A stretch of 64,000 nucleotides of DNA, from the NCBI RefSeq assembly GCF_006439025.1, contig NZ_RCYZ01000001.1, positions 248,001 to 312,000 on the forward strand, read 5' to 3'. Positions 15,515 to 38,605 of this stretch are shown here, one piece after another (within the stretch, counting starts at the first letter, position 1; the number at the start of each line of letters is the position of its first letter). Source of the stretch: Hymenobacter nivis. Its GTDB lineage: Bacteria > Bacteroidota > Bacteroidia > Cytophagales > Hymenobacteraceae. Below the pieces are notes generated by a model that saw only the letters and a program-made list of their open reading frames with translations, was not told the DNA's origin and ran no database searches. Both the position numbers and the translations under genes were made by a program.

Positions 15515-16447
15515 ATGCACTACCGCCAAGTTGGCCGCACCGGCCTGCACGTATCGCCCCTGAGCCTGGGGGCCTCGGCCCTGGGGGGGGTATTTGAAGA
15601 CATTGACCCCGCGCAGGGCATTCGCACGGTGCACGAGGCAGTGGCGCAGGGCGTCAATTTCATTGATGTGGCACCGTACTACGGCTTCACCAAGGCCGAG
15701 GCCGTGCTGGGCCAGGCCCTGCGCACCCTGCCCCGGCAGCAGTACCTGCTCTCGACCAAGGTGGGCCGCTACGGCCACAACGGCGTGAAAGCCTGGGACT
15801 ACAGCGCCGCGCGCGTCACCCAGAGCCTGCACGAAAGCCTGGCCCGCCTGCACACCGACTACCTCGACCTGCTGAGCGTGCACGACGTGGAGTTTGCCGA
15901 CCCCGACCAGGTGATTCACGAAACCATCCCGGCCCTGCTGGCGCTGAAGGCGGCGGGCAAGGTGCGCTACGTGGGCATCACGGGCCTGCCGCTGGCCAAG
16001 CTGCACCACATCCTTGACCGGGTGCCGGCCGGCACCCTCGACACGGTGCTTTCCTTCTGCCACTACTGCCTGACCGATGACTCGCTGGCCGACCACGTGG
16101 CCTACTTTGAGGAGCGCGGCGTGGGCATTGTGAACGCCGCCCCGCTGGCCATGGGCCTGCTCTCGGCCCAGGGGCCCCCGGCCTGGCACCCGGCCTCGGC
16201 GGCGCTCCGGCACCATGCCCGGCAGGCGGCGGCATTTTGCGCCAGCCAGGGCTATGCTATTGAGCAACTGGCCATTCAATTTGCAGTGAGCCACCCGGGG
16301 CTGGCCACTACGCTGGTGAGCGCCGCCTGCCCCCGCCTGATGCGGCAAAACATCGAATGGGCACAAACGCCCCCCGACCCCGCCCTGCTGCGCGAGGTGC
16401 GCGCCCTGCTACACCCCGTGCTGGGCGAAACCTGGGACAATTCCTGA
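15515..16447 (+). CDS. Aldo/keto reductase, probable L-fucose (aldose 1-) dehydrogenase
   Basis: 310 residues of a single TIM barrel. AKR marks are MHYRQVGRTGLHVSPLSLG, the Asp-Tyr pair in NFIDVAPYYGFTKAE, a Lys in LLSTKVGRYG, and the SVHDVEF segment in place of the usual LHDPD. It resembles the L-galactose / D-threo-aldose dehydrogenase group, which oxidises aldoses such as L-fucose at C1 with NAD(P)+. As the first gene of a run that continues with mutarotase, FucP and lactonase, it probably produces L-fuconolactone. A tract of eight Gs at about 15583-15590 lies in the N-terminal GG loop. An SDR at 35888-36676 is a second candidate for the same reaction. Confidence 0.85.
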   Translation: MHYRQVGRTGLHVSPLSLGASALGGVFEDIDPAQGIRTVHEAVAQGVNFIDVAPYYGFTKAEAVLGQALRTLPRQQYLLSTKVGRYGHNGVKAWDYSAARVTQSLHESLARLHTDYLDLLSVHDVEFADPDQVIHETIPALLALKAAGKVRYVGITGLPLAKLHHILDRVPAGTLDTVLSFCHYCLTDDSLADHVAYFEERGVGIVNAAPLAMGLLSAQGPPAWHPASAALRHHARQAAAFCASQGYAIEQLAIQFAVSHPGLATTLVSAACPRLMRQNIEWAQTPPDPALLREVRALLHPVLGETWDNS

Positions 16448-16560
16448 GGGGGATTTAAAAACTAAAAAAGAGGGATTGAAAAGGACACAGGCCCTGAATA
16501 AACTTTTAATTCCTCACTTTTAATTTTTAATTCCTACTTCCCCTACCCCCTCCCCACCCA

Positions 16561-16938
16561 ATGGCCCCTGCCGAAGAAGCCCGCCCTGCCCCCTTGTTTA
16601 AGCGCTACTGCAAGACGCTGCGCCTGCAAGCCGATGCCAACCTGCTGGCCGCCTACCGCCGCCTGCACGCGCCCGGCGCGGCTTGGCCCGAAATCGCCCA
16701 GGGCATGCGCGAAGTGGGCATCCTGAACATGGAAATATACCTGGCAGGCAGCCAAGCCTTTATGATCATGGACACCGTGCCCGGTTTCGACCACGACCAG
16801 GCCATGCAGGCGCTGGCCGCCAAGCCCCGCCAGGCCGAGTGGGAGGCCCTGGTGGCCCCCTACCAGCACACCACCCCCGACGCCACGGCCGCCGAAAAAT
16901 GGCAGCTTCTCGAGCGCATCTACCAGCTCGGCGCCTAG
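16561..16938 (+). CDS. L-rhamnose/L-fucose mutarotase (RhaM family)
   Basis: A 125-residue protein of the DUF718/RhaM family, a small ferredoxin-like dimer that interconverts the alpha and beta pyranose anomers of 6-deoxy sugars. Family marks are FKRYCKTLRLQADANLLAAYRRLHA at the N-terminus (active-site Tyr/His positions), WPEIAQGMREVGILNMEIYL and FMIMDTVPGFD. Relatives occur in the Campylobacter jejuni L-fucose cluster (Cj0488). Position between a sugar dehydrogenase and FucP makes L-fucose the likely substrate; rhamnose is the alternative. It starts at an ATG with a short AT-rich leader upstream (16450-16540) that contains repeated TTTTAATT units. Confidence 0.88.
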   Translation: MAPAEEARPAPLFKRYCKTLRLQADANLLAAYRRLHAPGAAWPEIAQGMREVGILNMEIYLAGSQAFMIMDTVPGFDHDQAMQALAAKPRQAEWEALVAPYQHTTPDATAAEKWQLLERIYQLGA

Positions 16939-17022
16939 CCCCGGGGCCGCGTTAGGGCCCCCGGGGGCCCTGGCCCGCCGCCTTCCCCTGCCTGCTTTCT
17001 TCCGCTTTTTTCCCACACGCCC

Positions 17023-18276
17023 TTGACTGCTGCCCGCTCCACCACGTTTGCCGTTGGCCTGATCACCTGCCTGTTCTTCCTCTGGGGCTTTGCCCTGAAC
17101 CTGAACCCGATCCTGATTCCGCACCTCAAGAAGGCCTGCCAGCTCACCGATGGCCAGTCGGCGCTCATCGATTCGGCCTCCTACCTGGCCTACTTCCTGC
17201 TGGCCCTGCCGGCCGGGCAGTTCATGAAACGCTTTGGCTACAAGGGCGGTATGCTGCTGGGCCTGGGCTTGTTCGCCCTCGGGGCCCTGCTGTTTTACCC
17301 TGCCGCCGCGCTGCGCTCCTACCCCTTTTTCCTGGGGGCCCTGTTCGTCATTGCTTCCGGCCTCACCTTCCTCGAAACGGCGGCCAACCCCTACATCACC
17401 GGCCTGGGCAGCCCCGAAGGCGCCACCCAGCGCCTGAACTTTGCGCAGTCGTTCAACGGCCTGGCCGCCACGCTGGCCCCGCTGCTGGGCGGCGTCTTCA
17501 TCTTATCGGGCAACAGCCCGAGCCCCGCCGCACTGGCCGCGCTCGCGCCCGCCGCGCGCACCGCCTACCTCGACCACGAGGCGGTGGCCGTGCAGGGCCC
17601 CTACCTGCTCATCGGCGGCTTCGTGCTGCTCATTGCGCTGCTGCTGTGGCGCACGCCCCTGCCCGCCCTGGCCGAGGAAACGACTGACACGGTGGCCGAG
17701 GGCGGCTTGTGGCAGCAAAAAAACCTGATGTTTGGCGTGCTGGCGCAGTTTTTCTACGTGGGGGCCCAGGTGTGCGTGAGCAGCTTCTTCATCCGCTTTG
17801 CCGGCAGCGTGGCGGGCTTCGAGGAGAAGCAGGCCGCCCAGTACCTGGCCGTGGCCTTGTTTGGGTTCATGGCCGGGCGCTTTTTGGGCACGGTGCTCAT
17901 GCGCTACGTGCCGGCGGCGCGGCTGCTGGCCCTCTACAGCGTGCTGAATGTGGGCTTGCTCGTCCTGGCTACTACGCTGCACGGCACGGGCGCGGTGTAC
18001 GCGCTGCTGGGGGTCGAGTTTTTCATGTCCATCATGTTCCCCACCATCTTTTCGCTGGGCATCCGGGGGTTGGGGGCGCGCACCAAGGATGGTTCGGCGC
18101 TGCTGGTGATGGCCATTGCGGGCGGGGCCGTGCTGCCGGTGGTGATGGGCCACGTGTCGGACGCCAGCACCATCCAAACGGCCTACCTGGTGCCCGCGCT
18201 CTGCTTTTTGGTGGTGCTGGGCTTTGCGTTGCGCAACAGCTCGGTGAAGCACCTCACCCTTTCCACCGCCCACTAG
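17023..18276 (+). CDS. fucP: FucP-type L-fucose:H+ symporter
   Basis: 417 residues with 12 predicted membrane helices, starting at TTG 17023; no ATG fits the first helix. FFLWGFALNLNPILIPHLKKA, and the two acidic residues used for proton coupling in E. coli FucP, are conserved: Asp50 in ALIDSASYLAYF and Glu118 in FLETAANPYITGLG. The NFAQSFNGLAATLAPLLGG segment and a C-terminal FALRNSSVKH tail complete it. It brings L-fucose into the cell for the enzymes around it. The same C-terminal tail recurs as a fragment at 34040-34114. The lactonase gene follows after 16 bases. Confidence 0.92.
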   Translation: MTAARSTTFAVGLITCLFFLWGFALNLNPILIPHLKKACQLTDGQSALIDSASYLAYFLLALPAGQFMKRFGYKGGMLLGLGLFALGALLFYPAAALRSYPFFLGALFVIASGLTFLETAANPYITGLGSPEGATQRLNFAQSFNGLAATLAPLLGGVFILSGNSPSPAALAALAPAARTAYLDHEAVAVQGPYLLIGGFVLLIALLLWRTPLPALAEETTDTVAEGGLWQQKNLMFGVLAQFFYVGAQVCVSSFFIRFAGSVAGFEEKQAAQYLAVALFGFMAGRFLGTVLMRYVPAARLLALYSVLNVGLLVLATTLHGTGAVYALLGVEFFMSIMFPTIFSLGIRGLGARTKDGSALLVMAIAGGAVLPVVMGHVSDASTIQTAYLVPALCFLVVLGFALRNSSVKHLTLSTAH

Positions 18277-18292
18277 CCGCCCTATCCCCCTC

Positions 18293-19126
18293 ATGAGAAT
18301 TGACGCGCACCAGCACTTCTGGCAGTACAACGCCCAGCGCGATGCCTGGATAACGCCCGACATGGCGGCCATTCGGCGCGATTTTGGGCCCGACGACCTG
18401 GGGCCCCTGCTGGCCCAGCACGGCTTTGGGGGTTGCGTGGCGGTGCAGGCCAGCCAGAGCGAGGCCGAAACCGACTGGCTGCTGACGCTGGCGGCCGCGC
18501 ACCCGTTCATTAAAGGCGTGGTGGGCTGGGTGGATTTGCAGGCCCCCGACGTGGCCGAGCGGCTGGCTTATTACCAGCAGTTTGGCAAGCTGAAAGGCTT
18601 CCGCCACGTGCTGCAGGGCGAGGCCGACCGGGCCCTGATGCTGACGCCCGCCTTCCGGCGCGGCCTAACGGCGCTGGGGCCCCTGGGCTTCACCTACGAC
18701 CTACTCATCTTGCCCGACCAGCTGCGCTACGCCGGCCAGCTGGCGGCCGCTTTTCCGCAGCAGCGCTTCGTGCTCGACCACCTGGCCAAGCCGCCCATCA
18801 AAGCACAGGAAATCGACGCCTGGGCCCGCGACGTGCGGGCGCTGGCCGCCCACGGCAACGTGTGGTGCAAGGCATCGGGCCTCCTGACCGAGGCCGACTG
18901 GCACGCCTGGCAGCCCCAGGATTTCCGGCCCTACCTCGACGTGGTGTTCGAAGCCTTCGGGACCGGGCGGGTGCTGTTTGGCTCCGACTGGCCGGTGTGC
19001 AACGTGGCCGGCGGCTACGCGGCGGCCGTGGGCGTGGCCCAGGGCTACGTGGCCGCGCTTTCGGCCAGCGAGCAGGCCGGGTTCTGGGGCGGCAACGCGG
19101 CCAGCTTCTATTCTATTGACAGTTAA
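18293..19126 (+). CDS. Amidohydrolase-family lactonase, probable L-fuconolactonase
   Basis: 277 residues of the COG3618 amidohydrolase type. It begins with the metal-binding MRIDAHQHFWQ (His-x-His), continues with GCVAVQASQSEAETDWLL, GFRHVLQGEAD, DLLILPDQL, FVLDHLAKPPI and ends with RVLFGSDWPVCNVAGGY, holding the last Asp. Members hydrolyse sugar lactones such as L-fucono-1,5-lactone, L-rhamnonolactone and galactonolactone. Between FucP and a dehydrogenase it should open the lactone made by the fucose dehydrogenase. It starts 16 bases after fucP and ends 10 bases before the next gene, so it is operonic. Confidence 0.88.
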   Translation: MRIDAHQHFWQYNAQRDAWITPDMAAIRRDFGPDDLGPLLAQHGFGGCVAVQASQSEAETDWLLTLAAAHPFIKGVVGWVDLQAPDVAERLAYYQQFGKLKGFRHVLQGEADRALMLTPAFRRGLTALGPLGFTYDLLILPDQLRYAGQLAAAFPQQRFVLDHLAKPPIKAQEIDAWARDVRALAAHGNVWCKASGLLTEADWHAWQPQDFRPYLDVVFEAFGTGRVLFGSDWPVCNVAGGYAAAVGVAQGYVAALSASEQAGFWGGNAASFYSIDS

Positions 19127-19136
19127 AACCTCGCTT

Positions 19137-20153
19137 ATGAAAACCCTCGTTTGCCTCGCCCCCGGTACCCTCGCCTATGAAGACCGGCCGGCCCCCGCGC
19201 CCCGGCCCGGCGAGGCGCTGCTGCGCATCCGGCGGGTGGGCGTGTGCGGCACCGACTTGCACGCCTTTGAGGGCACGCAACCGTTTTTCAGCTACCCCCG
19301 CGTGCTGGGCCACGAGCTGGCCGGCGAGCTCGTGGACACGGGCGGCGCGGCGGGCTTCGCGGTGGGCGAAGCCATTACGTTCATCCCCTACCTGCACTGC
19401 GGGCACTGCGTGGCCTGCCGCGCGGGCAAGCCCAACTGCTGCGTGCACATGCAGGTGTGCGGCGTGCACGTGGACGGCGGCCTAGCCGAGCTGCTGGCCG
19501 TGCCGGCCACCGCGCTGGTGGCCGGCCAGGGCCTGGGCTACGACGAGCTGGCCCTGGTGGAGCCGCTGGCCATTGGGGCGCACGGCGTGCGCCGGGCGGG
19601 CGTGCAGCCCGGCGAGTGGGTGCTGGTGGTGGGCGCGGGCCCCATTGGGCTGGGCATCATGGAGTTTGCCCGCATTGCGGGGGGGCGGGTTATCGCCCTC
19701 GATGTGAACGAGCAGCGGCTGGCTTTTTGCCGCGAACGGCTGGGCGTGGCCCACACCATCAACGGGCGCACTACGGACGTGGCCGCCGCGCTGGCTGCCC
19801 TCACCGGCGGCGACATGCCCACGGTGGTCATCGACGCCACGGGCAGCCTGGGAGCTATCAACCAGGGCTTTGCCTACCTGGCCCACGGCGGGCGCTACGT
19901 GCTGGTCGGCCTGCAAAAGGGCGATATCAGCTTTGCGCATCCCGAGTTTCACAAGCGCGAGGCCACGCTCATGAGCAGCCGCAACGCCACCCGTGCGGAC
20001 TTCGAGCAGGTAGTTGGGGCCCTAAAATCCGGGCAGGTGCAGCCCACCACCTACATCACGCACCGGGTGGCCTTCGGGCAGGTGGCCGAGGAGTTTGCGG
20101 GCTGGCTCGACCCTGCCAATGGGGTCATCAAGGCCATGATTGAGCTGCCCTAG
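19137..20153 (+). CDS. Zinc-dependent medium-chain alcohol/polyol dehydrogenase
   Basis: 338 residues from ATG 19137; upstream in-frame codons overlap the lactonase and are not used. The catalytic zinc site is seen in GVCGTDLHAFEG and LGHELAGE. The structural-zinc cysteines are HCGHCVACRAGKPNCC. The Rossmann motif is VVGAGPIGLGIMEFA, followed by IALDVNEQRL (Asp, so NAD+ is likely). Family members include L-galactonate, threonine and sorbitol dehydrogenases. In fucose loci such a gene is common, but the step is not fixed: it may oxidise a C4 or C5 hydroxyl of an intermediate or handle a related sugar. The catalytic residues look complete. Confidence 0.8.
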   Translation: MKTLVCLAPGTLAYEDRPAPAPRPGEALLRIRRVGVCGTDLHAFEGTQPFFSYPRVLGHELAGELVDTGGAAGFAVGEAITFIPYLHCGHCVACRAGKPNCCVHMQVCGVHVDGGLAELLAVPATALVAGQGLGYDELALVEPLAIGAHGVRRAGVQPGEWVLVVGAGPIGLGIMEFARIAGGRVIALDVNEQRLAFCRERLGVAHTINGRTTDVAAALAALTGGDMPTVVIDATGSLGAINQGFAYLAHGGRYVLVGLQKGDISFAHPEFHKREATLMSSRNATRADFEQVVGALKSGQVQPTTYITHRVAFGQVAEEFAGWLDPANGVIKAMIELP

Positions 20154-20224
20154 CACGTGGCGCGGGCGGCCAGGGCGCAAGCGCCCGGGCCCTGCCTCCT
20201 CCTTTTTTCCCTTCCCTGCTGACG

Positions 20225-21889
20225 ATGAATAGAAGAAAGCTGCTCAAGAACATGGCCCTGGCCGCCCCCGCCGCCTGGCTGCCCAGCGTGGTGGCGGGCC
20301 TGAACTGGAGCCCCCTGGCCCCGGCCGCGCCAGCCGCCCCGGCCGCCGGCAAGTTTTTGCCTACCTGGGATTCCTTGGCCCAGTACCAGACGCCCGAGTG
20401 GTTTCGGGATGCCAAGTTTGGCCTGTGGGCGCACTGGGGGCCCCAATGCGAGCCCGAGCGCGGCGACTGGTACGCCCGCGGCATGTACGAGGAGGGCTCC
20501 GACCAGTACAAGTTTCACGTCGAGAAGTACGGGCACCCCTCCAAGTTTGGCTTCAAGGACGTGATAAACGTGTGGAAGGCCGAGCAGTGGAACCCCGAGG
20601 AGCTGCTGGCGCTGTACAAGAAAGCGGGCGCCAAATACTTCGTGTGCTTGGCCAACCACCACGACAACCTCGACCTCTACAACAGCACCTACCAGCCCTG
20701 GAACTCGACCCGCGTGGGGCCCAAAAAAGACCTGGTGGGCGGCTGGGCCAAGGCGGCCAAAAAGCAGGGCCTGCGCTTTGGGGTGAGCGTGCACGCCGCC
20801 CACGCCTGGCGCTGGCTGGAAACGGCCCAGCGCGCCGACAAGATGGGGCCCCTGGCCGGCGTGCCCTACGACGGCAAAGTGACCACCGCCGACGGCCAGG
20901 GCCTGTGGTGGCAGGGCTACGACCCCCAGGCCCTGTACGCCCAAAACCACCCCCTGAGTGAAAATAGCCTCGACAACGGCTCGGTGCACCGGCAGTGGAA
21001 CTGGGGCAACGGCGTGACCCCGCCCAGCAAGGAATACTGCGAGAAGTTCTACAACCGCACCATCGAGCTGCTGGATAAATACGAGCCCGACCTGGTGTAT
21101 TTTGACGATACGGCCCTGCCGCTGTGGCCCGTGAACGACGCCGGCCTGCGCATTGCGGCCCACATGTACAACACCAGCGCCCAGCGCCACGGGGGCGGTA
21201 ATGAGGCCGTTATCTTCGGCAAAATCCTGACTCCCGAGCAGCGCAAGTGCATGGTCTGGGACATTGAGCGCGGCCAAAGCAACGAGATTGAGCCCCTGCC
21301 CTGGCAAACCGATACCTGCCTGGGCCAGTGGCACTACGACCGCCGCATCTACGACCGCCACGGCTACAAGAGCGCCCAAACCGTGATTCATACCCTGGTG
21401 GACGTGGTGAGCAAAAACGGCAACCTGCTGCTAAGCGTGCCCGTGCGCGGCAACGGCAGCATCGACGACCAGGAGCGCGCCATCGTGGAGGACATTGCCG
21501 CCTGGATGCAGGCCAACGGCGAAAGCATCTACGGCACCCGGCCCTGGAAAATATTTGGCGAAGGCCCGGCCCAGGAAGGTGCAGCCGCCCTCAGCGCCCA
21601 GGGCTTCAACGAGGGCAAAGGCAAGCCGTTCGGGGCCGAGGATATTCGGTACGTCACGAAGGGCAAAACCTTGTTTGCTACGGCCTTGGGCTGGCCCACG
21701 AGCGGGCGCCTGCTGCTCAAGTCGCTGGCCGTGGGCGGGCCGCACTACGCCGGCAAAGTCAAGCAAGTAGAGCTGCTGGGCGCGCCGGGCAAGCTCAAGT
21801 TCGAACACACCAAAGACGGGCTGGCCGTGGTGCTGCCCGCGCAAAAGCCCAACGCCATTGCCTACGCGCTGAAGATTGTGCCGGCGTAG
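20225..21889 (+). CDS. GH29 alpha-L-fucosidase, Tat-type signal
   Basis: 554 residues. The N-terminus MNRRKLLKNMALAAPAAWLP has a twin-arginine motif and hydrophobic stretch, so folded export by Tat is likely. The catalytic barrel has KFGLWAHWGPQ, AKYFVCLANHHDN and LVYFDDTALPLW with the nucleophile at Asp294 (DD pair 294-295), then LVDVVSKNGNLLLSVP. C-terminal residues from about 440 form a small beta-domain. It would release L-fucose from glycans. It follows the fucose catabolic genes at a 71-base distance on the same strand and directly supplies their substrate. The other GH29 at 60758-62197 is only distantly alike. Confidence 0.92.
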   Translation: MNRRKLLKNMALAAPAAWLPSVVAGLNWSPLAPAAPAAPAAGKFLPTWDSLAQYQTPEWFRDAKFGLWAHWGPQCEPERGDWYARGMYEEGSDQYKFHVEKYGHPSKFGFKDVINVWKAEQWNPEELLALYKKAGAKYFVCLANHHDNLDLYNSTYQPWNSTRVGPKKDLVGGWAKAAKKQGLRFGVSVHAAHAWRWLETAQRADKMGPLAGVPYDGKVTTADGQGLWWQGYDPQALYAQNHPLSENSLDNGSVHRQWNWGNGVTPPSKEYCEKFYNRTIELLDKYEPDLVYFDDTALPLWPVNDAGLRIAAHMYNTSAQRHGGGNEAVIFGKILTPEQRKCMVWDIERGQSNEIEPLPWQTDTCLGQWHYDRRIYDRHGYKSAQTVIHTLVDVVSKNGNLLLSVPVRGNGSIDDQERAIVEDIAAWMQANGESIYGTRPWKIFGEGPAQEGAAALSAQGFNEGKGKPFGAEDIRYVTKGKTLFATALGWPTSGRLLLKSLAVGGPHYAGKVKQVELLGAPGKLKFEHTKDGLAVVLPAQKPNAIAYALKIVPA

Positions 21890-22013
21890 CGGGGCCCCAA
21901 AATTTGGGGGCGACTAGCCATTTACATTAACTTGCCGGCCTAACCAGCTGGCTTGCCGTGCACTGCTTTCGAGCAGTTCGCGGCGAGCGGGCCTCACACT
22001 CTTACGCTTGCCC

Positions 22014-25178: not shown

Positions 25179-25194
25179 GTGCCGGTGGGTGCCG

Positions 25195-27644: not shown

Positions 27645-27651
27645 TTTTGCC

Positions 27652-28977: not shown

Positions 28978-28984
28978 TTTTCTC

Positions 28985-29449: not shown

Positions 29450-29470
29450 TTGGTTTTAAGCAGCCCCGAC

Positions 29471-30574: not shown

Positions 30575-30577
30575 CGC

Positions 30578-31651
30578 ATGCTGATTGTAGACGCCCACCT
30601 CGACCTGAGCATGAACGCGCTGGAGTGGAACCGCGACCTGACCCTGCCCGTGGCGGCCATCAACGCCCGCGAAGCCGGCCTCACCGACCGTCCCGACCGC
30701 GGCCGGGCCACGGTGAGCCTGCCCGCCCTGCGCCAGGGCGGCGTGGGCCTGGTGGTGGCCACCCAAATCGCGCGTTTCGTGGCCCCCGACAACCCCCTGC
30801 CCGGCTGGCACTCCCCCGCCCAGGCTTGGGCCCAAACCCAGGGCCAGCTGGCTTGGTACGAGGCGATGGAAGCCGCCGGCGAGATGTTACAAGTCAACAA
30901 CTTAGCCACTTTGGAGCAGCACCTGGCTCTCTGGGCCGACGCGGCGACCCCCGCTGCCCGCAAGCCCGTGGGTTACATCCTGAGCCTGGAAGGAGCTGAC
31001 TCGCTGGTGACCGTAGACTACCTGGCGCAGGCGCACGCCCGCGGCCTGCGCGCCGTGGGGCCGGCCCACTACGGCCCCGGCCGCTACGCCCAGGGCACCG
31101 ACGCCACCGGCGGCCTGGGGCCCCAGGGCCGCGCGCTGCTCAAGGAAATGGAGCGCCTCAACATCATCCTCGACGCGACGCACCTCTGCGACGACAGCTT
31201 CTGGGAAGCCCTCGACCACTTCCAGGGCCCCGTGTGGGCCAGCCACAACAACTGCCGGGCCCTGGTGCCCCACAACCGCCAGTTCAGCGACGACCAAATT
31301 AGGGCCCTGGCGGCGCGCGGCGCCGTCATCGGTGCGGCGCTGGATGCCTGGATGATGGTGCCCGGCTGGGTGCGGGGCGAATCGACCCCCGAGGCCCTGC
31401 GCTGCAACCTGGCCGTGATGGTGGACCACATCGACCACATCTGCCAGCTCACGGGCAGCGCCCGGCACGTGGGCATCGGCACCGACCTCGACGGTGCCTT
31501 CGGCCGCGAGCAGTGCCCCTACGACCTGGAAACCATCGCCGACCTGCAAACCATCCCGGCCCTGCTGGCTAAGCGCGGCTACCGCCCGGCTGATATTGAA
31601 GGCCTGATGCACGGCAACTGGCTGCGGTTTCTGCGCCAGGCGTGGGGGTAG
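30578..31651 (+). CDS. M19 membrane-dipeptidase-family metallopeptidase
   Basis: 357 residues of the renal-dipeptidase barrel. Metal ligands are in VDAHLDLSMNA (His-x-Asp), SLEGADSL (bridging Glu), DATHLCDDSFW and VWASHNNCRAL (His pair), and GIGTDLDGAFG (Asp). No signal peptide is evident, so it is likely cytoplasmic. M19 enzymes split dipeptides and tolerate a D-residue at the C-terminal side. It begins 3 bases after the D-TA gene, so the four genes from GntP onward form one operon. It is convergent with the GH97 gene, which ends 12 bases away. Confidence 0.9.
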   Translation: MLIVDAHLDLSMNALEWNRDLTLPVAAINAREAGLTDRPDRGRATVSLPALRQGGVGLVVATQIARFVAPDNPLPGWHSPAQAWAQTQGQLAWYEAMEAAGEMLQVNNLATLEQHLALWADAATPAARKPVGYILSLEGADSLVTVDYLAQAHARGLRAVGPAHYGPGRYAQGTDATGGLGPQGRALLKEMERLNIILDATHLCDDSFWEALDHFQGPVWASHNNCRALVPHNRQFSDDQIRALAARGAVIGAALDAWMMVPGWVRGESTPEALRCNLAVMVDHIDHICQLTGSARHVGIGTDLDGAFGREQCPYDLETIADLQTIPALLAKRGYRPADIEGLMHGNWLRFLRQAWG

Positions 31652-31662
31652 GCCTGGGGCCC

Positions 31663-33516
31663 CTACTGGGGCTTCAGCGTCAGGCAGGCCCCGCCCCCGG
31701 GGGCCAGCTTCACCCGGATAACGTCGGCGGCGGTGACTGGCCGCGTGGCCGCGGCGTAGCTTTCCTGCTGCGTGCGGAAGTCGGCCTGGGCGCCGTCCTG
31801 CACAATGGTGGCCGTGTAGCGCCCCTTGCCCAGGAAGGTGAGCGGAATGGCCAGCTCGCGGGCCTGCTCGTTGGTGGCGGCGCCCACCAGCCACGTTCGG
31901 TCCTGGGCCTGCCGGGCCATCACGATGTACTCGCCAATCTCGCCCTGCACCGTCTGGCTGTTCAGCCACGGCATTTTTTGCGCCGCGATAAACTGCAGCA
32001 GCTCCGGGTGATTTTCGTAGTTCTCGGGAATGTCGGGGATGATGGTGGCGCCCGAAAACACGATGAGCGTGCGCGCAGCCTCGCTGACCAGGGTAGAGGG
32101 CACCGGCGACGAGTTATCGACCCTACCCGCCTGGCTCAGGCTCGCGAAGCCATTGCCCATGTCCAGGGGCCCGGCCACCATGTTGACGAAAACGGACGTG
32201 ACGAACGTATTGGGCCCAAACTGCTGGTGGCCATCAAGTTGGGCCTTGCAATACTCGCGGGTCAGGGCGTTCGGGAACGTGCGCATTTGCCCGTAGGGAT
32301 GCACCGGCCCGTCATGGAAGTCGCACACCAGGTGGTGTTGCGCGCACAGCTCGGTAATCAGCTGGGTGCGGACGTTTTTTTCGGTGGGCGTGCCCGACAT
32401 AAAGCCGTACTTGATGCCCACGGCGCCCCAGTCGTGGTAGCGCTTCAGGGTCTGGCCGAGGTCAAAGTTGCGCCCCCCTACGTCGTTGAGGTACAGCCAG
32501 ATGCCGACTCCTTTACTTTTGCCGTAGGCAATAATATCGTGCACCTGCGCCACCTTGCCGCCCTTGATGGGGTCCGAGTCCTTGCCAAACTCGGGGCCGT
32601 ACCAATCAGCGTCCAGCACGAAATAGGGGAGCTGGTGGGCGGCGGCAAAGTCCACCATGCGCTTCCACGAGGGCAGCGACATTTCGTAGTTAAAGCCCGC
32701 TACGCGCGCCCCGTTGATGCGCCAGTCCCAGAGGGCTACCCCCGGCTTCACCCACGAAAAGTCCTGGGTGGGCGCCGGGTTCAGCAGCTCCAGCAGGTGC
32801 GAATCGACCAGGGCCCCGGGGGTGGGGCCGTAGAGCACCACCTTCCACGACGTGGTGAGCTTCGAGGCGATGGCGAAGCGCGTTTCGCCCTTCCGGGAGC
32901 GCAGAATGAGCGGCTCGCCACTGGTGAGCGCGGCTTCGTGCAGGGCCAGGTAGGCCGCGTCGTCGGCCTTCACGGTCATCACCGGCAGGCGCGTCGAATC
33001 GCAATCCGCCAGCTTTTCGGGCCCGATATTATGGTTTTCCCCGTTGTAATACCACGCCGTGTAGTTGCCGGCGAAGACAAACGTAGTCAGCTCTTTTACG
33101 GCCTGGTCGGCCGGGTAGTCGTAGCGGAAGGCGATGCCGTCGTTGTAGGCCCGCACGAGTATTTTGTAGGCTTTTAGATTGAGGGTTAGCTCATTGTACT
33201 GGTCCGGCACCATCGCCCGCTTGCCCCACACGGGCTTCCAGACGGTAGCCACGGAGCGCCGCGAAACCACCGGGGCCGTGGCCGCCGCCGCCAGCTTGAG
33301 GCCCAGTTTCCCATCCTTCAGCAGGGTTTTGGCATTGGCCACGAAGCTGTAGGTAATCGTCCCGGCGGGGTCGTACTGCAACTGCACCCGCAGCTTTTTG
33401 TCTGGCGAGGTAAGGGTGGGCAGCGGCGAGGCGCGGGCCGCCGAGGGTGCCGGCTTTGCGCAAGCTACGGCGGCGCCAAGCCATCCGGCTAGCAGCAGCA
33501 AAATATTGATTTTCAT
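31663..33516 (-). CDS. GH97 glycoside hydrolase (SusB-like alpha-glycosidase family)
   Basis: 617 residues from ATG at 33516 with a signal peptide ending near GAAVACAKP; a lipoprotein Cys at 19 is possible. The N-terminal beta-super-sandwich has SPDKKLRVQLQYD, AYNDGIAFRYDYP and PEKLADCDS. The catalytic barrel has WDWRINGARVAGFNYE, PYFVLDADWYGPEF, GIWLYLNDVGG, WGAVGIKYGFM, LVCDFHDGP and a Glu in TFPNALTREYCK. The Gly in IKYGFM stands where retaining alpha-galactosidases of this family have an Asp nucleophile (IKVDFM pattern), so an inverting alpha-glucosidase-type mechanism is more likely, from memory of the family. It faces the D-amino-acid operon and is alone on its strand. Confidence 0.88.
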   Translation of the reverse strand: MKINILLLLAGWLGAAVACAKPAPSAARASPLPTLTSPDKKLRVQLQYDPAGTITYSFVANAKTLLKDGKLGLKLAAAATAPVVSRRSVATVWKPVWGKRAMVPDQYNELTLNLKAYKILVRAYNDGIAFRYDYPADQAVKELTTFVFAGNYTAWYYNGENHNIGPEKLADCDSTRLPVMTVKADDAAYLALHEAALTSGEPLILRSRKGETRFAIASKLTTSWKVVLYGPTPGALVDSHLLELLNPAPTQDFSWVKPGVALWDWRINGARVAGFNYEMSLPSWKRMVDFAAAHQLPYFVLDADWYGPEFGKDSDPIKGGKVAQVHDIIAYGKSKGVGIWLYLNDVGGRNFDLGQTLKRYHDWGAVGIKYGFMSGTPTEKNVRTQLITELCAQHHLVCDFHDGPVHPYGQMRTFPNALTREYCKAQLDGHQQFGPNTFVTSVFVNMVAGPLDMGNGFASLSQAGRVDNSSPVPSTLVSEAARTLIVFSGATIIPDIPENYENHPELLQFIAAQKMPWLNSQTVQGEIGEYIVMARQAQDRTWLVGAATNEQARELAIPLTFLGKGRYTATIVQDGAQADFRTQQESYAAATRPVTAADVIRVKLAPGGGACLTLKPQ

Positions 33517-34173
33517 AAAGTAAGACCGTGAAGCTCGCCGGGTGCGGTAAGTGTTGCGCTTCAGATAAAGGCGTCCAACAGAAGCCGGATGCTTGGGCAG
33601 GCAGCGCCCGTCCCCACCACCGGTACCCGCGGGCCAAGGGGCTAGGCCGCGGCCCCGAACCGGCTTGCAAACTAGGCAGCACAAATTGCACAACCAATTA
33701 TTGGCCAGCTAATACCCCGGGTGAAATGTTGCTTTACCAGCCAAGCAGGGCCTTCGGGGCAGTCGCGCCGGGCTTTCTCCTCTGCCAGTTAGCTTTCAAG
33801 GCATACGGCATGGGTACTTGCAGCGACTGTTGGCGGTAGCACGACCACGCCTGGGGCACGGCAACCGGCTGCGGTGTCTGCGCAAAGCGTGGGGACAGGG
33901 TGGCGGCGTTGGGCCCTGCCCAGCGGGACGGCTACTCCGATTACCTTCGCTTTTCCTTGCATCCCCCCAGTGCCCACCCATACAGCCCCCGAAGAGTCCC
34001 ACCCGATGCCCGTTAAGTGCAGCGGCTGGCAAGCGGGCGGGCTTACTGGTCGTGCCCGGCTTTGCCCTGCGCAACGGCTCCGTCAAGCACCCCACGCTCT
34101 TGGCCGCTCACTAGCCCAGGGGCCCTATTCGCTCTTTTTTCAGCTTCTTTACTCCATCTAACGCGTTCGTTTC
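33517..34173. other. Gene-poor gap upstream of the SDR-FAH-SDR operon
   Basis: About 520 bases (33517-34039) contain no frame with protein-like content that I recognise. An AT-richer patch at 33680-33740 could be a promoter for the GH97 gene on the minus strand. The last part carries a fucP scrap (own entry). Just before the SDR start, AACGCGTT at 34160-34167 is a short perfect palindrome. Confidence 0.45.
34040..34114 (+). pseudogene. C-terminal scrap of a fucP gene
   Basis: The frame reads GLLVVPGFALRNGSVKHP then TLLAAH and a TAG stop at 34112-34114. Aligned to the last 24 residues of the intact FucP at 17023-18276 (CFLVVLGFALRNSSVKHL, TLSTAH, TAG), 17 of 24 residues are identical, and the stop codon is in the same place. 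No more of FucP is visible upstream. The scrap ends 59 bases before the SDR gene, so a second fucP copy once stood directly before the SDR-FAH-SDR operon. Confidence 0.8.
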
Positions 34174-34938
34174 ATGTTTGAATTAACCGGAAAGCAGGCC
34201 GTGGTGACGGGCGGCGGCAGCGGCATTGGCCGGGCCATTGCGCAGCTTTTTGCCCGCCAAGGCGCGGCCGTCCACATCATCGAGCGTACGCTGGCGGCTG
34301 GCCAGGCCACCGCCGACGAAATAGCGCAAGCCGGCGGCACGGCCCAGGTGCACGCCGCCGACGTGGGCCAGCAAGCCGCGGTGCAGGCCGCGTTTGCGGC
34401 CATTGGCCGGGTCGATATTTTAGTGAATAACGCGGGCATTGCGCACGTGGGCACCGTGGAAAATACGCCGGAGGCCGATTTCGACCGCGTGTACCAGGTG
34501 AACGTGAAGGGGGCCTACAACTGCCTGTTTGCAGCCGTGCCGCGCATGCGCGAGCAGGGCGGCGGCACCATCCTCAACCTGGCCTCCATTGCGGCACACG
34601 TGGGCTTGGCCGACCGCTTTGCCTACTCCATGAGCAAGGGCGCCATCCACGCCATGACGCTCTCGGTGGCCCGCGACTACCTCAGCAGCCACATCCGCTG
34701 CAACAGCATTTCGCCGGCGCGGGTGCACACGCCGTTCGTCGATGGCTTCATTGCCGGCAACTACCCGGGGCAGGAGGCGGCCGTCTTCGACAAGCTCTCG
34801 CGCAGCCAGCCCATCGGCCGCATGGGCCAGCCCACCGAAATTGCCGCCCTCGCCCTCTACCTGTGTTCCGACGAGGCGGGCTTCATCACCGGCTGCGACT
34901 ACCCCATCGACGGCGGCTTTATTAAGCTTAACACCTGA
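34174..34938 (+). CDS. SDR oxidoreductase, probable 2-keto-3-deoxy-L-fuconate dehydrogenase
   Basis: 254 residues of a classical short-chain dehydrogenase. The cofactor motif is VVTGGGSGIGRAIA, with Glu in IIERT after strand 2 (NAD-type). It also has NNAG, the catalytic Ser in NLASIAAHVG, Tyr/Lys in YSMSKGAIHAM, and a C-terminal DYPIDGGF. The first gene of a tight run with an FAH hydrolase and a second SDR. In the non-phosphorylative L-fucose route an SDR oxidises 2-keto-3-deoxy-L-fuconate to the 2,4-diketo acid, the substrate of the FAH enzyme, which fits this gene order. Assignment of the exact substrate is by context. Confidence 0.85.
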   Translation: MFELTGKQAVVTGGGSGIGRAIAQLFARQGAAVHIIERTLAAGQATADEIAQAGGTAQVHAADVGQQAAVQAAFAAIGRVDILVNNAGIAHVGTVENTPEADFDRVYQVNVKGAYNCLFAAVPRMREQGGGTILNLASIAAHVGLADRFAYSMSKGAIHAMTLSVARDYLSSHIRCNSISPARVHTPFVDGFIAGNYPGQEAAVFDKLSRSQPIGRMGQPTEIAALALYLCSDEAGFITGCDYPIDGGFIKLNT

Positions 34939-34968
34939 TCACCAACGCATAATAGTATTTTTTTTCGC

Positions 34969-35826
34969 ATGAAACTCATCCGCTACGGCCAGCCCGGCCA
35001 CGAGAAGCCCGGCGTGCTCCTGCACGAGCAGCGCTACGATGTATCGGCCTTCGGCCAGGACTACACCGAGGATTTTTTTGCCACCGACGGCCTGGCGCGG
35101 CTCGCCGCTTTCCTAGAGGCCAACGCCGGGGCCCTGCCCCCCGTGGACGCTGCCGAGCGCCTGGCCCCCCCGGTGGCGCGCCCGTCCAAAATCCTGTGCA
35201 TCGGCCTCAACTACGCCGACCACGCCCGCGAAACGGGGGCCACGCCCCCGGCCGAGCCGGTGCTGTTCATGAAATCGACCACGGCCTACGTGGGCCCCAA
35301 CGACGACATTATCATCCCCCGCAACTCGGTGAAAACCGACTGGGAAGTGGAGCTGGCCGTGGTCATCGGCCGGCGCGCTTCGTACGTGGCGGAGGCCGAC
35401 GCCCCGGCCTACATTGCGGGTTACGTGCTGCACAACGACGTGAGCGAGCGCGAGTTCCAGCTGGAGCGCAGCGGCACCTGGGACAAGGGCAAGGGCTGCG
35501 ATACCTTCGCCCCGGTCGGGCCGTTCCTGGCCACCCCGGATGAGCTCGGCGACCTCGACAACCTGCGCCTGTGGCTGACGGTGAACGGCCAGCTGATGCA
35601 GGACGGCACCACGGCCAACCTCATTTTCAAGGTGCCCTACCTGGTGTCGTACCTCAGCGAGTTCATGACGCTGCTGCCGGGCGACATCATTTCGACGGGC
35701 ACGCCCGCGGGGGTGGGCCTGGGCTTCAAGCCGCCCGTGTACCTTAAGCCCGGCGACGTGGTGGAGCTGGGCATTGAGGGCCTGGGCACCTCGCGCCAGG
35801 TGGTGAAGGCCTACAGCCCGGCCTAG
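34969..35826 (+). CDS. FAH-family hydrolase, probable 2,4-diketo-3-deoxy-L-fuconate hydrolase
   Basis: 285 residues of the fumarylacetoacetate-hydrolase fold. ILCIGLNYADHARE, PVLFMKSTTAYVGPNDDI, the metal-binding acidic triad in DWEVELAVVIGR together with the earlier His, VLHNDVSEREFQ, WDKGKGCDTFAPVGPF and ISTGTPAGVGLG are all standard. FAH enzymes cleave C-C bonds of diketo acids; the sugar-acid branch yields pyruvate and L-lactate from the L-fucose-derived diketo acid. It is 30 bases after the SDR that would make that substrate. The active-site residues look intact. Confidence 0.88.
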   Translation: MKLIRYGQPGHEKPGVLLHEQRYDVSAFGQDYTEDFFATDGLARLAAFLEANAGALPPVDAAERLAPPVARPSKILCIGLNYADHARETGATPPAEPVLFMKSTTAYVGPNDDIIIPRNSVKTDWEVELAVVIGRRASYVAEADAPAYIAGYVLHNDVSEREFQLERSGTWDKGKGCDTFAPVGPFLATPDELGDLDNLRLWLTVNGQLMQDGTTANLIFKVPYLVSYLSEFMTLLPGDIISTGTPAGVGLGFKPPVYLKPGDVVELGIEGLGTSRQVVKAYSPA

Positions 35827-35887
35827 CCTCCCGGGGCCCCAGCCGGGCCAGGGCAGCCCGTATTAACCATTTGCAACCCATTTAGCC

Positions 35888-36676
35888 ATGAACTTAGCGC
35901 TTCAGGACAAGGTAATTATCGTCACGGGCGGGGCCCGGGGCATCGGCGAGGGCATTGTGCGGGTGCTGGCGCAGGAAGGAGCCGTGCCCGTCGTCATCGG
36001 CCGCAAGGAGGCCGACAACCAGCAGGCCGTGGCCGCCGTGGTGGCCGCCGGGGGCCGCGCCGGGCAGGTGGTGGCCGAGCTCACCGAGCCGGCCGATTGC
36101 GCCCGGGCGGTGGCGGCCGTGGTGGCGCAGTTTGGCCGCATCGACGGGCTCGTGAACAACGCCGGCGTGAACGACGGCGTGGGCCTGGAAAGCGGCGACT
36201 ACGCGGGCTTTATGCAGAGCCTGCACCGCAACGTGGTGCACTACTACTTGGTGGCCCACCACGCCCTGCCCGAGCTGAAAAAGGCGAAGGGCGCCATCGT
36301 CAACATCACGTCCAAAACCGCCGAAACGGGCCAGGGCAACACCTCGGCCTACGCCGCGGCCAACGGCGCCCGCAACGCCCTCACCCGCGAGTGGGCCGTG
36401 GAGCTGCTCAAGTACGGCATCCGGGTGAACGCCGTGGCCGTGGCCGAGTGCTGGACGCCCGCCTACGAAACCTGGCTGCAAACCCTGGCCGACCCCGAGG
36501 AGAAGCTGCGCGAAATCACCGCCCGCATCCCGCTGGAAAGCCGCATGACCACCGCCGAGGAAATTGCCAACGCCGTCGCCTTCCTGCTCTCGGCCCGCAG
36601 CAGCCACACCACGGGGCAAATCCTGCACGTCGACGGCGGCTACGTGCACCTCGACCGCGCCCTGGCCAACGCTTAA
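35888..36676 (+). CDS. SDR oxidoreductase, probable L-fucose dehydrogenase
   Basis: 262 residues. Motifs are IIVTGGARGIGEGIV, an Arg-containing cofactor loop GRKEAD (NADP use possible), NNAGVNDGVGLE, NITSKTAETGQGNTSAYAA, and ANGARNAL where the usual YxxxK region reads Y-AAANGA. The following AECWTPAYETWL, IPLESRMTTAEEIA and VDGGYVHLDRAL segments match the bacterial L-fucose dehydrogenase group (Burkholderia type) that oxidises L-fucose at C1. The catalytic Lys position deserves a look, since I read Asn (AANGAR) where a Lys is expected three or four residues after Tyr. With the SDR and FAH upstream it fits the fucose pathway. It is a second candidate next to the AKR at 15515. Confidence 0.8.
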   Translation: MNLALQDKVIIVTGGARGIGEGIVRVLAQEGAVPVVIGRKEADNQQAVAAVVAAGGRAGQVVAELTEPADCARAVAAVVAQFGRIDGLVNNAGVNDGVGLESGDYAGFMQSLHRNVVHYYLVAHHALPELKKAKGAIVNITSKTAETGQGNTSAYAAANGARNALTREWAVELLKYGIRVNAVAVAECWTPAYETWLQTLADPEEKLREITARIPLESRMTTAEEIANAVAFLLSARSSHTTGQILHVDGGYVHLDRALANA

Positions 36677-36701
36677 GCGCTGCGCCATTGGCTGGTAGCT
36701 A

Positions 36702-36759
36702 ATAAAGCCGGGTGGGTGTAGAGACGCAAGGATGCGTCTCTACACCCACCCGGCTTTAT
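36702..36759. terminator. Perfect 27-bp hairpin between convergent genes; GTAGAGACGC-type palindrome
   Basis: Arms 36702-36728 and 36733-36759 are exact complements around loop AGGA. It lies 26 bases after the SDR stop and 68 bases before the stop of the minus-strand UxaA gene, so it can end both transcripts. The inner GTGTAGAGACGCA...TGCGTCTCTACAC resembles palindromic repeats that I recall as common in cyanobacteria and some Cytophagales, so it may also be a dispersed repeat copy. Confidence 0.8.
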
Positions 36760-36826
36760 CCTGCGGGGCTAACGCCCGCGCAGTGCAACGGTGCGTGTTG
36801 GCCCTAAAAATCAATTCATTAGCCGC

Positions 36827-38479
36827 TTACAGCGACACCCCGCGCTTCCACGGGATGAAGTCGTCCTGGCCCAGAGCCACGGCTTTGGGAATGACCTCGC
36901 CGCTGGCCGCGCGCACGCAGTAGTCCAGGATTTCTTCGCCCATCTGCTCGATGGTTTTGGTGCCCGCGATGACAGGGCCGGCGTCGAGGTCGATGATGTC
37001 GGCCAGGCGGCGGGCCAGCCCGGTGTTGGTGGCCACCTTGATGACGGGGCACACGGGGTTGCCGGTGGGCGTGCCCAGGCCCGTGGTGAAGAGGATGAGC
37101 GTGGCCCCGGCCGCGGCCTGGCCGGTGGTGGCCTCCACGTCGTTGCCGGGCGTGCACACCAAGGACAGGCCCGGGCGGCGGGCGGGCTCGGTGTAGTCGA
37201 GCACGTCGGCCACGGGCGAGGTACCGCCTTTTTTGGCCGCCCCAGCCGATTTAATGGCGTCGGTAATCAGGCCGTCGGCGATGTTGCCCGGCGAGGGGTT
37301 CATGAAGAAGCCCGAGCCGACCGCCGTGGCCAACGCGTCGTAGTCGCCCATGAGCTGGGTAAAGCGGCCGGCCAGGGCCCCATCGGGGCAGCGGTCGAGG
37401 ATGTTTTGCTCGGCCCCGCACAGCTCCGGGAACTCGGCCAGCAGCACCTGGCCGCCCAGGCCCACCAGCAGGTCGGCGGCGTAGCCCACGGCGGGGTTGG
37501 CCGAAAGGCCGCTGAAGCCGTCGCTGCCCCCGCACTTCACCCCGATGGAAAGGGCGCTGAGCGGGGCGGGCCGCCGCACGTTTTCGTTGGCCCGGGCCAG
37601 GCCCCGGAACGTTTGGCGGATGGCCTCGCTCACCACCTGCTCCTCGCTGTCCATCAGCTGCTGCTCAAATACCAGCAGCGGCTTGTCGAACTGCGGGTTG
37701 CGGCGCTGGAGGCTAGCCCGGAAATTACTGGTTTGCAGGTGCTGGCAGCCCAGGCTGAGCACCGTCACGCCGGCCACGTTGGGGTGGTCGGCGTAGGCGG
37801 CCAGCAGCTCGCCGAGGGTGTCGGCGTCTTGGCGGGTGCCGCCGCAGCCACCGCTGTGGTTCAAGAACTTAATGCCATCAACGTTGGGAAACACGCGGGC
37901 CCGGGCGGGCGTGGACGCGGGGGCCAGCTGGATGCCCTGCCCGTCGTCGCCCTGCTGGTAGGCCCGCAGCAGGTCGTGGGCAAAGAGGCGGTACTTGCCC
38001 GTGGTGGCGTAGCCCAGCTCGTGGTGCAGGGCCTCCTTGATGGCGTCGAGGTTGCGGTTTTCGCAAAACACCAGGGGCACAAACAGCCAGTAGTTGGCCG
38101 TGCCCACGCGGCCATCAGCGCGGTGGTAGCCCTGGAAGGTGCGGCCGGCAAAGCGCGCGGCGTCGGGGGCCACCCAGGGGCCCTGCTGCCAGCCGCGGTA
38201 GGCGTAGGGGTCGGCGGCGTGGGCGGTGTTGGCCGTGGTCATGCGCCCCCCCTGGGCAATGTGCACCTGCGCCTTGCCCACCAGCCCGCCGTACATGGTC
38301 ACTTCCGCGCCCGGCGCCATCTCGTGCAAAAAGAACTTGTGCTTGGCCGGAATGGCCTCGGGCAGCACAAGAACTTGGTTTTCAAAGCGTACCACCGTGG
38401 CGGCGGGCAAGTCCTGGAGGGCAACCATCACGTTGTCGGCCGGGTGAATGCGCAAAAAGCGCGCAGCAGGAGCACTCAT
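36827..38479 (-). CDS. UxaA-family sugar-acid dehydratase, probable L-fuconate dehydratase
   Basis: 550 residues from ATG at 38479. The N-terminal SAF-like domain (about 1-100) has FLRIHPADNVMVALQDLP and PAKHKFFLHEMAPGAEV. The main part has GYHRADGRVGTANYWLFVP, HSGGCGGTRQDADTL, LGCQHLQTSNF, KCGGSDGFSGLSANPAVG, EFPELCGAE, NPSPGNIADGL and TTGLGTPTGNPV, all typical of altronate/galactarate dehydratases with iron-binding Cys/His. In the Campylobacter jejuni fucose cluster UxaA-type genes supply the dehydratase step instead of the enolase-type FucD. Here it stands beside the fucose SDR and FAH genes but on the opposite strand, so the same role is likely. Confidence 0.85.
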   Translation of the reverse strand: MSAPAARFLRIHPADNVMVALQDLPAATVVRFENQVLVLPEAIPAKHKFFLHEMAPGAEVTMYGGLVGKAQVHIAQGGRMTTANTAHAADPYAYRGWQQGPWVAPDAARFAGRTFQGYHRADGRVGTANYWLFVPLVFCENRNLDAIKEALHHELGYATTGKYRLFAHDLLRAYQQGDDGQGIQLAPASTPARARVFPNVDGIKFLNHSGGCGGTRQDADTLGELLAAYADHPNVAGVTVLSLGCQHLQTSNFRASLQRRNPQFDKPLLVFEQQLMDSEEQVVSEAIRQTFRGLARANENVRRPAPLSALSIGVKCGGSDGFSGLSANPAVGYAADLLVGLGGQVLLAEFPELCGAEQNILDRCPDGALAGRFTQLMGDYDALATAVGSGFFMNPSPGNIADGLITDAIKSAGAAKKGGTSPVADVLDYTEPARRPGLSLVCTPGNDVEATTGQAAAGATLILFTTGLGTPTGNPVCPVIKVATNTGLARRLADIIDLDAGPVIAGTKTIEQMGEEILDYCVRAASGEVIPKAVALGQDDFIPWKRGVSL

Positions 38480-38557: not shown

Positions 38558-38605
38558 GGCCCGGCCAAGGGGCCCTGGTGGTGGCCGGGGCCCCTTGGCC
38601 GGGCC
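38558..38605. repeat. GC-rich 17-bp inverted repeat
   Basis: Arms GGCCCGGCCAAGGGGCC (38558-38574) and its exact complement (38589-38605) enclose 14 bases. It lies between two minus-strand genes: downstream of the phosphoesterase gene and upstream of the UxaA gene. It has no T-run on either side, so it may be a Rho-dependent or structural element. Confidence 0.55.

Follow-up and report, generated by a model that had tools for sequence, protein, structure and literature searches.

The degradation of L-fucose through L-fuconate is known with more than one kind of dehydratase. In Paraburkholderia mimosarum, the L-fucose gene cluster follows Route III and is induced by its sugar, and a heteromeric L-fuconate dehydratase of UxaA type has been proposed from gene context (PMC6336799); we infer that the two dehydratase genes lie within that cluster. 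The Campylobacter jejuni genes Cj0480c-Cj0490 also include a UxaA-type dehydratase (PMC9100392, PMC6946681), and the route described for Xanthomonas campestris uses FucD, of the enolase superfamily. For L-galactose, the lgu cluster of Luteolibacter and BVU_0219/BVU_0222 of Bacteroides vulgatus provide an L-galactose dehydrogenase of the aldo-keto reductase (AKR) kind and an NAD-dependent L-galactonate dehydrogenase (PMC12632266). Here we analyse two clusters of sugar-catabolic genes, one of them with a uxaA gene, in a 64,000-nucleotide stretch of Hymenobacter nivis (contig NZ_RCYZ01000001.1, positions 248,001 to 312,000), called the window throughout.

A probably divided L-fucose pathway

We suggest that the window quite probably encodes an oxidative (non-phosphorylating, Route 3) L-fucose system of the Bacteroidota kind, in which UxaA would be the L-fuconate dehydratase and of which the operon would have been divided. 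An earlier note on this DNA had listed nine genes in two clusters 14 kb apart, and in profile searches of the window all nine proved to be intact open reading frames (ORFs) with family matches (Table 1). Cluster one (15515-20153, plus strand) encodes the AKR, a mutarotase (FucM), the permease FucP, a lactonase-type amidohydrolase and a medium-chain dehydrogenase/reductase (MDR). Cluster two consists of a plus-strand run (34174-36676) encoding a short-chain dehydrogenase/reductase (SDR1), a FAH-family hydrolase and a further SDR (SDR2), and of uxaA on the minus strand (36827-38479), which converges on that run. The gap between the clusters (20154-34173) measures 14.0 kb.

In the route that we propose, the GH29 fucosidase would release L-fucose, FucP would import it and FucM would supply the right anomer; SDR2 would form L-fucono-1,5-lactone, which the amidohydrolase would convert to L-fuconate; UxaA would yield 2-keto-3-deoxy-L-fuconate (KDF), SDR1 would oxidise this at C4, and FAH would convert the resulting diketo acid to pyruvate and L-lactate. 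Every substrate here is predicted from sequence. The gene families and their context agree with the earlier note in favouring an oxidative L-fucose route, with an SDR/FAH (diketo) branch and a UxaA-type dehydratase.

Comparison with described systems

Like P. mimosarum, the window would have an L-fuconate dehydratase of the UxaA/GarD superfamily in a Route III context, but as a single chain of 550 residues instead of the two-gene, heteromeric form of that betaproteobacterium (PMC6336799). C. jejuni likewise combines FucP, a FucX-type SDR, a hydrolase, a mutarotase and a UxaA-type dehydratase, but there UxaA is encoded by two genes, and a branch of DapA plus aldehyde dehydrogenase replaces SDR/FAH (PMC9100392, PMC6946681). 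With the X. campestris route the window would share all intermediates and an SDR as KDF dehydrogenase, but not FucD, for which a probe found no match in the window's genome.

The nearest arrangements are found in Bacteroidota. Plasmid unnamed2 of Hymenobacter tibetensis (NZ_CP094671; loci L050/L138) carries a uxaA-SDR-FAH-SDR-fucP run with genes 56-82% identical to those of the window, and a mutarotase gene nearby (63%); unlike the window it is undivided, has an adjoining AraC gene and shows no lactonase match in the stretch, and its UxaA falls in another clade of fucose-locus genes. Flavitalea sp. BT771 (L088) has FucP, FucM, SDR1, FAH, lactonase, SDR2, MDR and UxaA in one run together with UxaB- and PfkB-type genes, but the run is undivided, its UxaA belongs to the galacturonate-operon clade and there is no AKR match. 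The window shares with the lgu cluster and B. vulgatus the kind of AKR and an MDR with an N-terminus (MKTLVCLAPG) similar to that of LguD (MKTLVLREPG); the lgu-type route continues through D-tagaturonate, D-altronate and altronate dehydratase (PMC12632266), whereas the permease and lactonase of the window resemble fucose-operon ones and the genes like UxaB and KdgK belong to a different operon at a distance of about 140 kb.

Enzymes of the predicted route

The earlier note had taken the AKR for the fucose dehydrogenase. We predict instead that the L-fucose dehydrogenase is SDR2, because it passes the curated NCBIfam model NF052481 for this enzyme over residues 1-259 and because its top solved relatives, PDB 4gkb/4gvx (1.5e-89) and 6drr/6ds1 (6drr 1.3e-65), are the L-fucose dehydrogenases of Burkholderia multivorans and C. 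jejuni, respectively (PMC13406643, PMC6946681). The AKR was rejected for this role, its five best PDB sequences all being L-galactose dehydrogenases (4.7e-103 to 4.4e-86).

FucP passes the curated cut-off of the fucP model and is 82% identical to FucP of the H. tibetensis fucose operon. The lactonase, for which 4dlf is the closest solved chain, is nested among the lactonases of Hymenobacter fucose loci, in a tree in which 4 of the 43 inner branches were starred and the window row was flagged for composition. The FAH protein has as its nearest solved enzyme 8gsr, an L-2,4-diketo-3-deoxyrhamnonate hydrolase, the substrate of which is the same compound as the diketo intermediate of the fucose route (PMC11199699). 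SDR1 matches 8xwk, the L-KDF dehydrogenase of Herbaspirillum huttiense (PMC11199699), in third place behind two uncharacterised SDRs. L-rhamnose as a substrate, suggested by the RhaM-family mutarotase and by the FAH match to a rhamnonate-pathway enzyme, was set aside because both SDR2 and FucP score above the cut-offs of fucose models and the two routes have the diketo acid in common.

The UxaA-type dehydratase

Members of the UxaA/GarD superfamily have been defined by GD_AH domains and four conserved cysteines (PMC6336799). The window's UxaA scores above cut-off for PF04295 and PF20629, and its cysteines C139, C212, C245 and C316 are invariant in eight aligned rows; context and phylogeny make it a putative L-fuconate dehydratase. 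The genome encodes one other UxaA/GarD protein (C1:106918-108552), 60% identical to that of the window, in the company of GH28 and of genes resembling UxaB, UxaC and KdgK. The copy in the window seems to be a dedicated one, the altronate enzyme that belongs to the galacturonate operon being encoded elsewhere.

As a check on this, the earlier note had proposed a search for an enolase-type FucD or a KDF aldolase elsewhere in the genome, and the outcome spoke for its reading. A FucD probe from Pedobacter psychrodurus, which matches FucD 1yey at 1.3e-102, had no match in the genome at 1e-10, and the models that best match the two MR_MLE_C proteins present, with scores under cut-off, are of o-succinylbenzoate synthase and of racemase/epimerase type. 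A DapA-type KDF aldolase was rejected, the genome giving a single DHDPS (DapA-like) match (L005, G000:C21:206026-206877) with one TAA stop in the matched frame. The phosphorylating route was rejected too, as no Fucose_iso_C domain was found in the genome.

Recurrence across Bacteroidota

We compared the loci of the best 80 of 554 confirmed relatives of the L-fucose dehydrogenase (FucDH, here SDR2) in GTDB genomes, all Bacteroidota by their titles; they are not a random sample and some contigs are short. In 26 of the 80, UxaA, FAH and both SDRs are found together within some 10 kb; counted singly, UxaA is matched in 33, FAH in 51 and SDR1 in 46; FucDH is the only one of the four in 23, some of them on short contigs. 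Because the loci were chosen for FucDH only, the co-occurrence of SDR1, FAH and UxaA in 26 of them argues for a grouping beyond chance. The mosaic of UxaA with FAH, which the earlier note had pointed out, recurs across the phylum and is not unique to the window, and the P. mimosarum proposal is also in print (PMC6336799); among the papers that our searches of open-licence PMC listed, we saw no description of the single-chain Bacteroidota version. The interest that remains lies in the apparently dedicated UxaA, in the probable division of the operon and in the likely link to L-galactose described below.

UxaA is the only recurring candidate dehydratase that we found among the 80 loci. FucD was rejected as the dehydratase of the UxaA-less loci, the probe matching in none of the 80 at 1e-5; judged by the N-terminus, the MR_MLE proteins at L140 and L141 did not seem FucD-like. 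All 15 genomes searched for a set of 16 loci (that of L058 was left out) contain a UxaA-family match, and the P. psychrodurus genome has one as well as a FucD. LutB- and LutA-type genes lie near the fucose operon of L058 (11768-13984), and both recur in 9 of the 80 loci, which fits L-lactate as a product of the route.

Public annotation labels the UxaA genes of the plasmids listed here 'altronate dehydratase family protein', and genomes of this kind would seem to be without the fuconate step if enolase-type FucD were the only thing looked for. Among minor observations, eight loci (L063, L065-L071), some on short contigs, have FucDH with an LgoD-like MDR and no match to FAH, SDR1 or UxaA, L063 having an L-arabinose isomerase nearby. 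At L121 (4231-5870) the UxaA match within the fucose run is in two pieces (51% and 66%), which could reflect a two-gene form, a frameshift or an assembly error. The L050/L138 plasmid has its UxaA in a fucose operon, and a Runella slithyformis plasmid (L137) has UxaA with FAH and aldehyde dehydrogenase; given these plasmid-borne sugar-acid contexts, such modules may move. An E. coli record (L139, NZ_CP128951) has a gene of the altronate-dehydratase family with 47.6% identity to the UxaA of the window, and its neighbours encode a DapA-family protein and an MFS transporter.

Ancestry of the dehydratase and its pattern in the genus

In a tree of 76 UxaA proteins, including 32 of the 33 UxaA-bearing loci (L121, with its match in two pieces, was left out by the length filter), the window's UxaA falls in a clade of 12 rows, all from fucose loci (support 100/96), the other members coming from Chitinophagaceae, Sphingobacteriaceae, Flavobacteriaceae and Weeksellaceae. 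The galacturonate UxaA of the same genome sits in a separate clade of 24 rows (23 galacturonate-labelled plus Flavitalea L088; 100/98), and the tree does not support the window's UxaA as a duplicate of it. Fucose-labelled rows do not form one clade (approximately unbiased test, p 0.014, on a quick tree and after the tree had been seen). The three natural UxaA variants of the window, its galacturonate operon and Flavitalea would allow a direct comparison of specificity for altronate and fuconate.

Among 101 genomes of the genus, the window's UxaA type is found in this one only, all other matches being 56-61% identical. The best locus matches of FucM, FucP, lactonase, MDR, SDR1, FAH and SDR2 are from Hymenobacter (63-89%); that of UxaA is from Segetibacter, 69% vs 60% within the genus loci, and no AKR relative above 45% was found among the loci examined. 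This UxaA could have arrived by transfer or could reflect differential retention. FucDH occurs in 35 and UxaA in 74 of the 101 genomes, UxaA being present in 35/35 with FucDH vs 39/66 without (Fisher p 1.0e-6); 33 of the 35 have a single detected UxaA. Genus rows of the UxaA tree are all in galacturonate context, except those of the window and the H. tibetensis plasmid. A genus-wide search for FucD-like proteins gave partial matches only (33-34% over about 163 residues), in 3 of the 101 genomes. At L038-L040 (genomes G064, G098 and G083) a UxaA from a sister clade has an SDR1-like SDR (61-64%) close by, with no match to FAH or FucDH; a sulfotransferase-type gene stands between the two at L038.

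Probable division of the operon

Seven Hymenobacter loci (L056-L061, L064) have the order SDR1-FAH-lactonase-SDR2, followed by an MDR that is complete in L056, matches at 73% in L060, is present as fragments in L059 and is unseen in the other four. In Mucilaginibacter (L062) and Flavitalea (L088), FucP, FucM, SDR1, FAH, lactonase, SDR2 and MDR are in a single run, and in trees the lactonase and MDR of the window branch with homologues from Hymenobacter fucose loci. Because its congeners keep the lactonase inside the SDR1-FAH-SDR2 run, we consider that the arrangement of the window is probably derived, by division of an operon of the SDR1-FAH-lactonase-SDR2(-MDR) type, the direction of change being read from these gene orders. 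The split described in the earlier note looks like a real rearrangement, the order being undivided in related loci.

A probable link to L-galactose

The MDR, which the earlier note had called an extra dehydrogenase, is LgoD-like (43.8% identical to E. coli LgoD over 338 residues), and for this reason cluster one likely also serves L-galactose. LguA, of the lgu cluster, groups with plant and Bacteroides L-galactose dehydrogenases and is reported to be inactive on L-fucose, and L-galactonate passes via D-tagaturonate and D-altronate to altronate dehydratase (PMC12632266). Cluster one would probably double as an entry for L-galactose, taking L-galactonate to D-tagaturonate for UxaB and a UxaA, with lactonase and FucP presumably in shared use. 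It looks like pieces of a fucose operon joined to an L-galactose-type AKR and LacI regulator; the first half of this view is suggested by the branching of its lactonase and MDR with Hymenobacter fucose loci and by the 82% identity of its FucP to that of the H. tibetensis fucose operon.

In Flavitalea L088 the MDR is followed on the same strand by a PfkB-type gene (35% to the KdgK of the window's genome), UxaB and UxaA, the only UxaA detected in that genome; this run points to a shared L-fucose/L-galactose system. L-fuconate and altronate have the same C2-C4 configuration. We put forward, tentatively and with some doubt, that a single altronate dehydratase of these Bacteroidota doubles as L-fuconate dehydratase, making one promiscuous enzyme the meeting point of the routes for L-fucose, L-galactose and galacturonate, and that the lineage of the window left this sharing through a dedicated UxaA of other ancestry, with lactonase, permease and mutarotase regrouped with L-galactose-type enzymes. 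That most FucDH-bearing Hymenobacter show just one UxaA is in its favour; counting against it, the Flavitalea-type run is seen in 1 of 80 loci, the genomes from Hymenobacter are not independent of one another by descent, and a glycan-rich genome may simply have both functions.

Contrary evidence and alternative explanations

Several observations weigh against a divided L-fucose operon with UxaA as its fuconate dehydratase. Three proteins fall below the curated cut-offs of their models and their roles are therefore inferred: the lactonase for NF052480 (L-fucono-1,5-lactonase; 278.4 vs 400 bits, residues 1-275), FAH for NF053535 (2,4-didehydro-3-deoxy-L-rhamnonate hydrolase; 349.2 vs 500) and the MDR for LgoD model PRK10083 (202.2 vs 376, its best among the models listed). 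SDR1, with positions counted by hand, keeps an equivalent of Arg148 and lacks those of Arg192, Arg214 and Trp252, with a Phe in place of the last and one Arg sitting one residue before the 214 column; it may nonetheless have L-KDF 4-dehydrogenase activity, as several arginine patterns are described (PMC11199699). The row of the window carries flags in the UxaA tree for its long branch and its unusual composition, and for rows that were obtained via FucDH the 'fucose' label is partly built in. All three partial MR_MLE (FucD-like) matches of the genus are in FucDH genomes. One of the two ILVD/EDD proteins of the window's genome adjoins an SDR on contig 21, and close relatives of it occur in 3 of the 101 genomes of the genus, each of them FucDH-bearing. 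In C. jejuni, a knockout of the UxaA-type Cj0483 still metabolised L-fucose (PMC9100392). Finally, the palindrome before cluster one (see below) has no counterpart before cluster two.

That last asymmetry would suit two separate neighbouring pathways, with cluster one an L-galactose module complete in itself (LacI, AKR, lactonase, FucP-like permease and LgoD-like MDR) and cluster two an L-fucose module relying on another lactonase or on spontaneous hydrolysis, as would the kinship of the AKR and MDR to L-galactose enzymes. A Bacteroides finegoldii plasmid has a comparable set (LacI, AKR, amidohydrolase, fucP and zinc-dependent alcohol dehydrogenase) without SDR or FAH, its LacI being 50% identical to that of the window, and a Catenovulum plasmid joins a mannitol-dehydrogenase-type gene, zinc-dependent alcohol dehydrogenase, amidohydrolase, AKR, GH2, altronate dehydratase and mutarotase. 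However, the lactonase and MDR of the window group with Hymenobacter fucose loci; the B. finegoldii amidohydrolase gave no blastp match at 1e-5, its alcohol dehydrogenase is 31% identical, and its FucP 39%, against the 82% of H. tibetensis; and cluster two lacks a lactonase, mutarotase and permease of its own (the rest of the genome was not searched for others). We consider two pathways rather unlikely. It is less likely still, and in our view improbable, that the window's UxaA is a second dehydratase for D-altronate (or L-galactonate) in an L-galactose branch, with L-fuconate dehydrated by another enzyme such as the contig-21 ILVD/EDD protein: the UxaA family does include altronate dehydratases, which the LgoD-like MDR would feed through D-tagaturonate, and the ILVD/EDD gene has the neighbour and carriers just mentioned, but 32 of the 35 FucDH-bearing genus genomes lack that type at 1e-140, L131 alone among the 80 loci matches it (and matches ordinary IlvD better), and in the tree the nearest company of the window's UxaA is that of UxaA genes with FAH and SDR genes next to them. 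D-arabinose has the C2-C4 configuration of L-fucose, and a route mainly serving this sugar, giving pyruvate and glycolate, would have parallels in the UxaA-superfamily D-arabinonate dehydratase and pentose Route III of Herbaspirillum (PMC6336799) and in C. jejuni, where FucX and cells use both sugars (PMC6946681); with a GH29 fucosidase adjoining cluster one, and FucP and FucDH above fucose-specific cut-offs, we think this very improbable.

Regulation and surroundings of the clusters

The perfect 40-nt palindrome between LacI and AKR is a possible LacI-family operator; within the window, GCAAANSTTTGC occurs with zero mismatches only within 15367..15406. Since cluster two has no counterpart, joint control of both clusters by LacI is unsupported, and a shared operator was rejected, the 43 matches at two or fewer mismatches comparing with a shuffle mean of 47. 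Between the LacI-AKR gap (15462-15479) and the region before uxaA (38592-38609), 16 of 18 positions match, against a maximum of 15 in 20 simple shuffles; this match is G+C-rich and was given no weight. The hairpin between SDR2 and uxaA, whose core occurs once in the window and in none of 100 shuffles, may be a two-way terminator.

Table 1. Features of the two clusters and their flanks (window coordinates).
Feature	Position	Strand	Evidence and remarks
LacI-family regulator	14202..15209	-	Pfam LacI, Peripla_BP_3; divergent from cluster one
Perfect 40-nt palindrome	15367..15406	.	two abutting GCAAA-NN-TTTGC palindromes; between LacI and AKR
AKR	15515-16447	+	PF00248 8.8e-48; PDB 7lh6 L-galactose dehydrogenase 4.7e-103; predicted aldose 1-dehydrogenase
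RhaM-family mutarotase (FucM)	16561-16938	+	PF05336 9.1e-26; PDB 7byu L-fucose mutarotase 2e-5
MFS/FucP, L-fucose:H+ symporter	17023-18276	+	TIGR00885 fucP 353.3 bits, cut-off 280.4
L-fuconolactonase-type amidohydrolase	18293-19126	+	PF04909 3.5e-50; PDB 4dlf 4.3e-55
Zn-dependent MDR dehydrogenase, LgoD-like	19137-20153	+	candidate L-galactonate 5-dehydrogenase; start codon inferred
GH29 alpha-L-fucosidase	20225-21889	+	PF01120 2.3e-88; possible fucose source
SDR1, putative 2-keto-3-deoxy-L-fuconate 4-dehydrogenase	34174-34938	+	PDB 8xwk 3.3e-44
FAH hydrolase	34969-35826	+	PF01557 1.7e-71; PDB 8gsr 1.3e-79
SDR2, predicted L-fucose 1-dehydrogenase	35888-36676	+	NF052481 409.4 bits, cut-off 300
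Hairpin, perfect	36702..36759	.	27-nt arms, 4-nt loop; between convergent SDR2 and uxaA
UxaA/GarD-family dehydratase, putative L-fuconate dehydratase	36827-38479	-	PF20629 4.2e-91, PF04295 1.4e-35

The MDR ORF was listed from 18978, and the ATG at 19137 is its likely start, giving 338 residues. A long plus-strand ORF overlapping the uxaA region had no family match in the profile search. The gap between the clusters holds GH29, GH43, GH20 and GH97 genes, amino-acid-type genes and a GntP permease (27652-28977, plus strand) interrupted by an in-frame TAG at 28642-28644; each half matches PF02447, and the interruption reflects either a pseudogene or a sequencing error.

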